A stretch of 37,016 nucleotides of DNA from Phormidium tanganyikae FI6-MK23 (lineage in GTDB: Bacteria > Cyanobacteriota > Cyanobacteriia > Leptolyngbyales > Leptolyngbyaceae), in the NCBI GenBank assembly GCA_019359175.1, contig JAHHHU010000031.1, positions 1 through 37,016 on the forward strand, read 5' to 3'. Of this stretch, positions 3,879-6,323 are shown piece by piece. The translations under genes were made by a program, and so were the position numbers. Below the pieces are notes generated by a model that worked only from the letters and a program-made list of their open reading frames with translations, did not search any database and was not told the DNA's origin. Within the stretch, counting starts at the first letter, position 1, and every line of letters starts with the position of its first letter.

Positions 3879-4892
3879 ATGACCCCTGAGCTTGGATTAG
3901 TTTGTATTTCCGCATCAAAAACGGTGCGATTTAAGACGATCACGCGCAAGCGATTATTGCAATTCGATTTAGTCGAACAGGAACGATTGCTGCGCGAATT
4001 GTATGCGGAAAATTTGCGACGATTGGGAATTGCGATCGAGTTTTGTGCCAGCAATGATATTCGACTTTATCGATTAAGTTCAGGACTATTTCCGTTTGCC
4101 GATGATCCGATGGGTGCGGCAGTTTTAGACGAGTTTACCGAAGGAATGGGGTTAGTTGGAGAACAGGCGACGCGGCTTGGAGTTCGGTTAGTTTTGCATC
4201 CGGATCAGTTCGTCGTGTTAAGTTCCGATCGACCTGAAGTAATCGAAAATAGCATCAAAATTTTATCAATGCACGCGCGGACGTTTGATCTGTTGGGACT
4301 ACCGCGATCGACTTGGGCATTGATGAACATTCACGGGGGGAAAGGAGATCGAGCAGAGCGGTTGATCGATTCGATTCGCAATCTCCCGGATAACATTCGC
4401 TTACGGATCACGCTCGAAAATGATGAGTACACTTACGGCGCAGAGCAAATGGTTTCGATCTGCAAAGCGGCAGGTGTTCCGCAGTTGTTTGACGCGCATC
4501 ATCATGTGATTCACGAGAAAGTGGAGAGCTATGAGGATGAAAGTGTGATTTGGGCGCTTGAAGAAGCTCGATCGACTTGGGAGAATCCGGATTGGCAAGT
4601 GGTTCACATTTCAAACGGTGCAGAGTCATTCTTGGATCAGAAGCATAGTGATTACATTACGGTGATGCCAAGTTGCTATCGTCAAGCACCTTGGATTGAG
4701 ATTGAAGCTAAACAAAAGGAGTTTGCGATTCAGAAGCTACAGGAAGAGTGGTTGTATTCGGATTTGAATGTGTTGCCACCTGTGGTGGTTGAGACTGAGG
4801 AGAAGAAAGAGGACATTCAGATTGAGGCGGTGACTCCATCGACTCAGGATGATGAGCCTTCTGAGTTGGTAGAGCAAGTGGTTTCGGTGTAG
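3879..4892 (+). CDS. uvsE: UV damage endonuclease UvsE (UVDE)
   Basis: UvsE nicks DNA 5' of UV photoproducts and starts an excision pathway separate from UvrABC. The 337-residue protein matches the UVDE TIM-barrel: LGLVCISASKTVRFKTIT at the start, NDIRLYRLSSGLFPFADDP, LVLHPDQFVVLSS, NIHGGKGDRAERLIDSI, RITLENDEYTY and LFDAHHHVIH. The conserved His, Glu and Asp residues in these segments are the expected metal ligands. The C-terminal 40 residues, rich in Glu and Val, are not part of the catalytic fold. The stop codon lies inside the first unit of a 41-bp tandem repeat. The gene is monocistronic as far as can be seen, and a MITE-like element follows it. Confidence 0.93.
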   Translation: MTPELGLVCISASKTVRFKTITRKRLLQFDLVEQERLLRELYAENLRRLGIAIEFCASNDIRLYRLSSGLFPFADDPMGAAVLDEFTEGMGLVGEQATRLGVRLVLHPDQFVVLSSDRPEVIENSIKILSMHARTFDLLGLPRSTWALMNIHGGKGDRAERLIDSIRNLPDNIRLRITLENDEYTYGAEQMVSICKAAGVPQLFDAHHHVIHEKVESYEDESVIWALEEARSTWENPDWQVVHISNGAESFLDQKHSDYITVMPSCYRQAPWIEIEAKQKEFAIQKLQEEWLYSDLNVLPPVVVETEEKKEDIQIEAVTPSTQDDEPSELVEQVVSV

Positions 4893-4969
4893 TTGGGAGT
4901 TATTGGTTTCGTTGCTTGTTTGTTTTGGTGTAGTTGGAAGTTGTTGGTTTCGTTGCTTGTTCGTTTTGG
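4888..4969. repeat. Two tandem 41-bp units spanning the uvsE stop codon
   Basis: Unit 1 (4888-4928) and unit 2 (4929-4969) are adjacent direct repeats starting TGTAGTTGG and ending GTTTTGG, with about four mismatches. The uvsE stop codon TAG (4890-4892) is in unit 1 and is copied in unit 2. The duplication therefore leaves the protein unchanged and only lengthens the 3' flank. Confidence 0.9.
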
Positions 4970-5243
4970 ATTGAAAATCTACCGTGTACGCACAAGTCGT
5001 TTATCGCTCCGTTTCGGTCGGCTTCTGCCCCCTAAGTCCCCCAAATTTGGGGGACTTTGAAGCTCAAAAAAGTCTTGGCGTTCTGGAAATTCCTTCTCAA
5101 AGTCCCCCATTCTGGGGGACTTAGGGGGCGAGAGGTCTAGGCGATCACAGATCAATCGACTTGTGTGTACACAGTATGAAAATCGGAGCTAACGATGCAA
5201 AGTTTGCGCCCCGGATTAAAATACTCTAATTTTAGGATTGGTT
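4893..5243. other. Gap between uvsE and the DHH gene, mostly repeats
   Basis: The 351 bp contain the second part of the 41-bp tandem repeat, a complete MITE-like element (4980-5176) and a short leader. No gene is visible. The leader of the next gene has AGGA at 5234-5237, which supports its ATG at 5244. Confidence 0.7.
4980..5176. mobile_element. MITE-like palindromic element with an 8-bp target duplication
   Basis: The element starts TACCGTGTACGCACAAGTCG and ends CGACTTGTGTGTACACAGTA, imperfect terminal inverted repeats of about 20 bp. It is flanked by a perfect 8-bp direct repeat TGAAAATC at 4972-4979 and 5177-5184, the mark of transposition. Inside are two long inverted arms: one with CCCCCTAAGTCCCCCAAA, the other with TTTGGGGGACTT-like and GGGGGACTTAGGGGGC sequence. 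Transcribed, it would fold into a long hairpin. It encodes nothing. The 8-bp duplication argues against IS630/Tc1 mobilisation (TA duplication) and fits families such as ISAs1, which make 8-10 bp. Related sequence recurs near 26063-26141 and 34381-34834. Confidence 0.85.
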
Positions 5244-6323
5244 ATGACTTTTACAGTTGATGCTACAGTCGGAACTCCGAATCAAGAAGTTGCAATTCAA
5301 GCTTTTAGGCAGTTTGTTGATCAAATCTCGCATTCTTCTAGAATTGTTGCTGTTCATGATTCGGATGCGGATGGAGTCACGGCTGGAGTCGTGTGGCAGC
5401 GGGCATTTGAAAGAGCAGGATTTGCTTCAGTTCATCGAGTGATTCCCGATCGAGAACGCAACGCCTGGACACCGAACAATCGAGCGATCGTACAATCCGC
5501 AAATCCCGCTCATCTATTCGTAATGGATTTGGGAAGCCGTTCTGAGCCTGTGATTTCTGGCGTTCCGACTTGTTTTATTGATCATCACCATCCTGAAGGT
5601 GTGCCCGATGGTGATACCTTGATCACCGCTTACACTTGGGAACCAATTCCAAATACTTCGCTGATCATTTGGGAACTGTGTCAAACGATCACAGATATTT
5701 CCGATCTCGATTGGATTGCTGCGATCGGAACATTGAGCGATTTAGGCGAGCGCGCTCCCTTTGAGCTACTAGCCACCGCAAAACGCAAGTACACTGCAAA
5801 GTATCTCAAAGAAGCAACCGCGCTGGTTAATGCCTCTCGGCGTGCTTCTCACTACGATCCTGAAGTGGCTGCTCGATCGCTGTTGAATCACTCAAGTCCA
5901 AAAGCGTTAGTAAATTCGGATAGTGCAGACGTGCAACAACTGAGATCGGCGCGTGAAGAAGTCAAACGCGAACTTGAGAAAGCACGAAAAGCAGCTCCAA
6001 TTTTTTCGGGAAATGTCGCTCTGATTCGGATGAACTCTCCCTGTCAAATTCATCCGCTGATTGCTCAGAGTTGGTGTGGACGATTGTCTAAACTAATCGT
6101 GATTGCAGCAAATGAGGGTTATATGCCGGGACGAGTGAACTTTGCGGCTCGATCGAACAGTGCCAACGTTCTCGAATTTCTTCGGAGTCAGAAGCTTTCG
6201 GCTGGAGAAGGAAGCTACGCACACGGACACGATCAGGCATCGGGGGGCACTTTGAGCATCGAACTTTGGAATGAATTGTTAGCAAAACTTGGATTTCCAG
6301 AAACCACTTTTGCGAAATCGTAA
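5244..6323 (+). CDS. DHH-family phosphoesterase (DHH plus DHHA1)
   Basis: This 359-residue protein belongs to the DHH superfamily (RecJ, NrnA and related metal-dependent phosphodiesterases). Motif I is HDSDADGV at residues 38-45, motif II MDLGS near 94-98, motif III DHHHPEG at 113-119 and motif IV GTLSDLGE near 165. The C-terminal DHHA1 part carries GHDQASGGTL, the usual glycine-rich nucleotide-contacting loop. All catalytic Asp/His positions are present, so it should be active. It is too short to be full RecJ, and its true substrate (short oligonucleotide, pAp, cyclic dinucleotide or other) cannot be told from sequence. An ATG at 5244 preceded by AGGA at a 6-base gap is preferred over a TTG two codons earlier. 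It is 100 bp upstream of the next gene, so membership of that operon is uncertain. Confidence 0.87.
   Translation: MTFTVDATVGTPNQEVAIQAFRQFVDQISHSSRIVAVHDSDADGVTAGVVWQRAFERAGFASVHRVIPDRERNAWTPNNRAIVQSANPAHLFVMDLGSRSEPVISGVPTCFIDHHHPEGVPDGDTLITAYTWEPIPNTSLIIWELCQTITDISDLDWIAAIGTLSDLGERAPFELLATAKRKYTAKYLKEATALVNASRRASHYDPEVAARSLLNHSSPKALVNSDSADVQQLRSAREEVKRELEKARKAAPIFSGNVALIRMNSPCQIHPLIAQSWCGRLSKLIVIAANEGYMPGRVNFAARSNSANVLEFLRSQKLSAGEGSYAHGHDQASGGTLSIELWNELLAKLGFPETTFAKS

Follow-up and report, generated by a model that had tools for sequence, protein, structure and literature searches.

The window analyzed here is a 37,016-nt stretch of DNA from Phormidium tanganyikae FI6-MK23, the entire contig 27 of a genome assembly of 5.74 Mb in 77 contigs (96% complete). 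Between a uvsE gene and a gene with a DHH domain it contains a short element with inverted ends, flanked by two exact copies of an 8-bp sequence. Three questions arise: What kind of mobile element is this, which transposase could have moved it, and is 8 bp the real length of its target duplication? With a probability of about 0.85, we consider it an old, probably immobile, non-autonomous MITE of the IS4 family, similar to IS50 and Tn5, whose 10–11 bp duplication lies in a C...G palindrome and has been trimmed. An anonymous cyanobacterial repeat is linked in this way to an IS4-type helper, and its duplication length is corrected. The related insertion sequences (ISs) appear to be a Tn5-like system found in nature that strongly prefers C...G palindromes. 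The main interest lies in this target choice and in an apparent parallel insertion.

The element and its copies

The features of the locus are collected in Table 1. The exact TGAAAATC repeats occupy positions 4972–4979 and 5177–5184 (100% identical), and the inverted ends, 4980–5002 and 5154–5176, are 87% complementary across 23 bp. The first-pass annotation had described a MITE of 197 bp with terminal inverted repeats. Both the type and the length stand: The core is short and non-coding, it has inverted ends, there are dispersed copies, and related genomes have empty sites. It had also called the element complete, which is not supported, since the terminal G is missing at the right end. The element lies in a tandem gap, with both neighboring genes on the + strand.

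Table 1. Features of the MITE locus (window positions)
Feature	Position	Strand	Remarks
uvsE (UV damage endonuclease UvdE, PF03851)	3879..4892	+	Upstream gene; the MITE is on its 3' side
Left target copy GATTGAAAAT	4969..4978	+	Putative original 10-bp duplication, judged from the family duplication length and homologous empty sites
Left terminal inverted repeat CTACCGTGTACGCACAAGTCG	4979..4999	+	Outer C conserved across the family
MITE core, 197 bp	4980..5176	.	No overlapping ORF of at least 100 aa
G/C-rich left arm of internal palindrome	5027..5052	+	88% complementary to 5104–5129; fold
G/C-rich right arm of internal palindrome	5104..5129	+	Inverted repeat with 5027–5052; fold
Right terminal inverted repeat	5157..5176	-	T at 5177 where the terminal G is expected
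Right target copy TGAAAAT	5177..5183	+	Probably 3 bases shorter at the element junction, compared with the G006 and G003 empty sites
Target base C	5184
DHH-domain gene (PF01368)	5238..6323	+	Downstream of the MITE

The end motif, with at most three mismatches, is found three times in the window, against 0.33 expected, and this number was reached in none of 100 shuffles. In the whole genome there are 51 matches with at most two mismatches, against 1 for a reversed-pattern control. The whole element has at least 90 BLAST matches in its own assembly (40 of 157 first-look candidates scored), found on both strands, a count to be read in the knowledge that a palindromic MITE matches itself on both. 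We have compared 43 distinct rows from this genome (G000) in a tree, partial copies counted. Together with the 51 end motifs, they provide the other copies that the first-pass annotation had proposed to look for. The family is not limited to one genome: The element is matched at 1e-5 in 25 of 58 genomes, its own included (with up to 14 candidates scored in each).

The nearest copy in the same genome, among those scored, is 91–93% identical, so no recent burst is visible. The exact repeats had been taken as a sign of fairly recent movement. With this degree of divergence, and with no helper-type transposase in the assembly, that claim is not supported: Recent movement of the window copy is not demonstrable by sequence comparison.

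A literature query joining the motif GTGTACACAC with cyanobacteria and insertion sequence gave no match, and no description of this family was found in titles and opening abstracts, a body of text that leaves most of the subscription literature outside its coverage. Nezha is reportedly a cyanobacterial MITE of Zhou 2008, and it is similar to our family as a named element of this type, a likeness by description only, not by sequence. It is mentioned as a cyanobacterial MITE elsewhere too (PMC3733652; cited in PMC10969869).

Insertion sequences with the same ends

The exact 20-base end is present in at least 112 stretches of genome_contigs (several stretches per genome), and 111 of the 112, among the matches listed, are from Cyanobacteriota. 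We have looked for paired ends in 80 of these 112 loci. Among these 80, one complete IS was found, 1487 bp long, at positions 31–1517 of L179, from Pseudanabaena sp. UWO311. Its 443-aa ORF matches the IS4 family profile NF033590 with 374.6 bits (cut-off 160), is barely over the cut-off of Pfam DDE_Tnp_1, and is similar to the Tn5 transposase with an E value of 4.7e-28. The open frame of this copy starts only downstream of a stop.

A homologue of this transposase is found at 1e-10 in 18 of the 58 genomes. Genome G012 has 13 places with a near-full-length IS. The two examined, L233 and L251, are 1484 bp long, with ends CTACCGTGTACACACAAATC and CTACCGTGTACACACAAGTG. Genome G006, which belongs to the genus of the window, has three such places; the two examined (L234 and L252) are 1472 bp long and their ends are more diverged. 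The frames are open, without stops, over 455 aa in G012 and 477 aa in G006, although the start codons and the N-terminal segment are approximate. The YREK motif, Y-(2)-R-(3)-E-(6)-K, is present in all three transposases checked (L179, L233, and L234). By eye, the duplications measure 10 bp in L251, 11 bp in L233, and 10 bp in L234; the complete ISs L179 and L252 show no clean duplication by eye. These lengths come close to one turn of the helix (some 10 bp), as is characteristic of the IS4 family.

The MITE and the ISs are alike only in their ends of about 20 bp. These shared ends suggest that this IS lineage would be the helper of the MITE. The idea of a helper other than the usual IS630/Tc1 type had been put forward in the first-pass annotation, and our results bear it out by pointing to the IS4 family. 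An IS630/Tc1 MITE would have a TA duplication, which is seen neither at the window copy nor in the family.

A full-length IS with the same ends, the other expectation of that annotation, exists in other genomes (L179, L233, and L251), and none was found in the genome of the window. In this assembly, which consists of 77 contigs and is 96% complete, there is no homologue of the transposase at 1e-10, and only two sub-cut-off NF033590 fragments are present, one covering 41 profile positions and the other 76. We have scanned 30 of its 31 PF01609 loci for the ends, allowing up to 7 mismatches in 21: None is framed by them. A close pair of ends in L086 corresponds to a MITE copy, not to transposase ends, and two 7-mismatch matches in L096, on opposite strands with about 1.8 kb between them, have been taken as chance. 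Three loci in which a single end has no partner (L061, L063, and L066) show no transposase-like ORF by eye. In G012 no whole MITE is found: Its four matches are pieces of the inner palindrome only (40 of 111 candidates scored).

One of these pieces, C1:3853791, is about 100 bp from the ORF of an IS copy, which fits palindromes as targets. We should also note that the sole non-cyanobacterial record with the exact end, among the matches listed, is L164, a MAG of Acidiferrobacterales (JAHQWE010000029.1). It reflects either a binning error or a transfer.

The closest known relatives are in the IS50 subgroup, tabulated with ends CW------Y---CA-A--W-, a size of 1350–1550 bp, and duplications of 8–9 bp (PMC2266710). 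The putative helper ISs are similar to it in their ends, their length (1472–1487 bp), the YREK motif, and a transposase homologous to that of Tn5. They differ in three features: The duplications are mostly 10–11 bp here, against the 8–9 bp of that table; the targets are C...G palindromes; and they are found almost wholly in cyanobacteria, whereas most members of the subgroup are from proteobacteria according to the same source (PMC2266710). Because of the 10–11 bp mode, we have placed these elements in the IS4 family as IS50-like, not as strict members of the IS50 subgroup.

Target sites

The target preference appears in the flanks of the ends. In 116 flanks of exact ends, the frequency of C is 0.61–0.75 at positions -15 to -10 and that of G is 0.76 at -1. 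The 42 flanks from the genome of the window also show C at -15 to -13 (0.60–0.64), with G at -1 in just 0.31. An example of these palindromic targets is CCCTCT-CCCAAGCTGGG-AGAGGG.

Over the six bases outside the duplication, the arms are complementary at 3.20 of 6 positions on average; random places give 1.53, with 2.02 as the highest value among 500. When the right arms are shuffled, the mean is 2.72 and the highest value is 3.16. As the excess over shuffled arms is slight, the C...G composition is clear and base pairing is only suggested. Twelve elements from the genome of the window give 2.92 (shuffles: mean 2.68, highest 3.75).

A target defined by arms has a precedent in the IS4 family: IS231A has the target consensus GGG(N)5CCC. 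In its subgroup, duplications are 10–12 bp (PMC2266710) and the ends are CAT, so it resembles our lineage in family, duplication length, and arm-defined target; on the other hand, here it is the left arm that has C and the right arm that has G, and the ends are different. Insertion into palindromic repeats is described for ISRm22, an IS4-family element of Sinorhizobium that is found in intergenic palindromes, the REP repeats (PMC1525189, where the text counts nine copies and the table gives 10/10). ISRm22 differs in its subgroup, IS4Sa (PMC2266710), and in its host, and the comparison is by description, not by sequence.

Simple ORF calling around the 42 copies in the genome of the window places 23 of them between convergent genes, 13 in tandem gaps, and 3 in divergent gaps; 2 are in an ORF and 1 is at an edge. 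Among the 39 that can be classified, 23 are therefore convergent, and at least one gene 3' end faces the MITE in 36. MITE-free gaps of at least 60 bp, taken from the window and ten other stretches of the same genome (n = 34), include only 2 convergent gaps, with 18 tandem and 14 divergent ones. The difference is significant by Fisher's test (p = 1.2e-6 for convergent and 9e-4 for divergent gaps). With gap cut-offs of 20 and 100 bp, the convergent controls are 6/45 and 1/28 (p = 2e-5 and 1e-6), and a smaller separate control has 5 tandem, 3 divergent, and 1 convergent gaps. Convergent gaps are strongly over-represented among the MITE sites.

There is also a wider interpretation, which we consider less likely than not. 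A Tn5-like lineage spread among cyanobacteria might read the shape of the palindrome, a hairpin or bend in the middle of the C...G arms, instead of a fixed sequence. Its IS and MITEs would repeatedly colonize palindromes that resemble terminators, where they do no harm, at the 3' ends of genes, and in different species they would enter at exactly the same base. As the MITE itself carries such palindromes, each insertion would then create new landing sites.

The same spacer in related genomes

Two congeners, G003 and G006, have the spacer between uvsE and the DHH-domain gene without the MITE. The empty site is CCCCGGAATGGAATTCGGGG in G006, where the spacer reads CCCCGGAATGGAATTCGGGGCTAACAG, and CCCGGAATAGAATTCGGGG in G003, where it reads CCCGGAATAGAATTCGGGGCTAACAG. 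From these sequences, the site before insertion was probably a C...G palindrome. A single repeat had been expected at an empty site, and each genome does have one homologue of it, TGGAATTC in G006 and TAGAATTC in G003; they are diverged, and the exact TGAAAATC is not present. In G005 and G007 the spacer is shorter and the palindromic site is absent.

Another case is G002, which has a MITE at the same junction. By eye, its left junction and its orientation are equal to those of the window copy, and degradation is seen at its right end and in the flank on that side. In gene trees, G002 groups with G003 and G006, not with G000 (support 82/99 for uvsE and 88/89 for the DHH gene). In the MITE tree of 69 rows, the window copy pairs with another copy from its own genome, L002 (97/92), and the G002 site copy appears with other G002 copies (99/91), except one G002 row, L283, which is placed elsewhere. 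A reduced tree contains 42 of the 69 rows, the fuller ones, picked by hand; the 27 left out include single rows of other genomes, partial G000 rows, and G002_L271, L282, and L283. In this tree one branch separates the 12 G002 rows from all others (100/97), and the window copy is in no starred branch. With these 42 rows, a clade uniting the window copy with the copy at the G002 site is rejected (p-AU 0.000125), in a test chosen after the first MITE tree was known.

The grouping of the G002 site copy with copies of its own species points to two independent insertions at one palindrome, in G000 and in G002, which we take as the best reading of the trees. The coincidence is to be expected, since the palindrome would determine where an element enters. 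A single insertion in an ancestor shared by G000 and G002, with precise losses in G003 and G006 and later gene conversion that made the copies within each genome alike, seems to us rather unlikely. It would explain the equal left junctions and orientations, the gene trees that separate G002 from G000 have moderate support, and the joint-clade test is post hoc, with the window copy outside any starred branch of the reduced tree. Nevertheless, this history requires a precise loss, duplication included, and both the rejection of the joint clade and the 12-row G002 group stand against it, as does the pairing of the window copy with L002 in the fuller tree. If the two insertions are independent, a shared MITE site in this family is no proof of shared ancestry.

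A second case in G002 is L307, where a MITE lies directly downstream of a gene whose homologue precedes L017, a MITE copy in the genome of the window, on its left side. By BLAST the orientation is opposite. Its duplication, with 10 of 11 bases matching, is within the palindrome CCCCCAAGTTTGGGGG. This is possibly a second parallel colonization of the 3' region of one gene. No empty site is readable for L017, whose flanking genes are separated in the relatives; for L010 the right flank is present in the relatives, and the homologous spacer was not found.

Ends and duplication length

The 8-bp duplication proposed in the first-pass annotation is exact at the window copy. As the length typical of the family, it is not supported. 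Among the two-ended copies in this genome, 19 of 21 start with CTA and 19 of 21 finish with TAG, so the family ends are CTAC...GTAG. Judged from these other copies, the element begins at C4979, one base before 4980. The window copy has this conserved C at its start, and finishes with GTAT. The terminal G is likewise missing from its nearest relative in the genome, L002, which ends in GTAA.

In these 21 elements, the identity between both flanks has its peak at 11 bases (0.481, against 0.293 for mismatched flanks), and at 8 bases it is 0.286, against 0.265 in the control. One of them, L065, with 73 bp and 6+6 mismatches, is likely to be spurious and has been kept in the counts. A repeat of at least 70% identity is found in 12 of the 21, in 6 of these at 11 bp. 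Of the 70 elements with both ends in named contigs, such a repeat flanks 51, and it is perfect in 25. The best lengths of these 51 repeats, each taken as the best score among 8–13 bp, a selection that adds noise, are 8 bp (4 cases), 9 bp (6), 10 bp (19), 11 bp (17), 12 bp (3), and 13 bp (2): A 10- or 11-bp duplication is found in 36 of 51. The other elements, 9 of the 21 and 19 of the 70, have no repeat at the 70% level.

As the terminal G is missing, the 8 bp of the window copy are probably a trimmed 10–11 bp duplication. In the simplest reading, GATTGAAAAT (10 bp) would have been present at each side, and about 4 bases would since have been lost at the right junction: the last G of the element and three bases of the duplication. 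The conserved terminal C of the family coincides with a C of the target itself, and for this reason the repeat appears to have 8 bp. The same element could instead have a genuine 8-bp duplication, TGAAAATC, with ends TAC...GTA. Such an origin would agree with the exact repeats, with the four cases in which 8 bp scores best, with the 8–9 bp tabulated for the IS50 subgroup (PMC2266710), and with the missing G in L002. We consider it improbable, because the conserved CTA and TAG extend beyond these ends in 19 of 21 copies each, and because flank identity peaks at 11 bases and at 8 hardly exceeds the control.

The most probable history is the following. A Tn5-like DDE transposase from a full-length IS with CTACYGTGTACACACAAGTC ends would have cut the MITE out, in a cut-and-paste route like that known for IS50 and IS10. 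The MITE would then have been pasted downstream of uvsE, into the center of the spacer palindrome with its C-rich and G-rich arms, where staggered cuts about 10–11 bp apart would have duplicated the palindrome center. The loss at the right junction would have come later.

Predicted RNA folding

A strong RNA hairpin on the 3' side of uvsE had also been predicted, and our calculation agrees: For the transcript of the element, the folding energy is -110.6 kcal/mol (z -10.6). If transcribed, this hairpin may affect the 3' ends of uvsE mRNA. In 18 copies, two-sided change is found in 4 of 52 pairs, with a covariation term of +0.46. With such negligible covariation, the pairing can be attributed to conservation of the palindrome, and there is no sign in these copies of selection at the RNA level or for an effect on uvsE. 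A functional RNA under selection, a uvsE terminator or mRNA stabilizer instead of a mobile relic, would fit the very strong fold and the position of most copies next to gene 3' ends, and is very improbable in view of this covariation, the unoccupied sites in G003 and G006, the short spacers in G005 and G007, and the absence of Rfam matches in the window.

Variant copies and local duplication

Shorter derivatives with the same ends are present in the genome of the window: one of 90 bp (L068, 10876–10965) and two of 133 bp (L069, 1535–1667 and 9333–9465). In two copies the flanking repeats are inverted, not direct. These are L025 (G000 C75:245219–245418), with AGCTTCAGATA...TATCTGAAGCT, and the second 133-bp derivative in L069, with GTTTCAAC...GTTGAAAC. 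They correspond either to insertion at the exact center of a palindrome, without a visible duplication, or to a later rearrangement.

The spacer between uvsE and the MITE contains another repeat. A 29-nt stretch at 4900–4928 recurs 41 bp further on, at 4941–4969, with 93% identity. It is present once in the sister spacers of G003 and G006, so it was probably duplicated locally in the lineage of the window.
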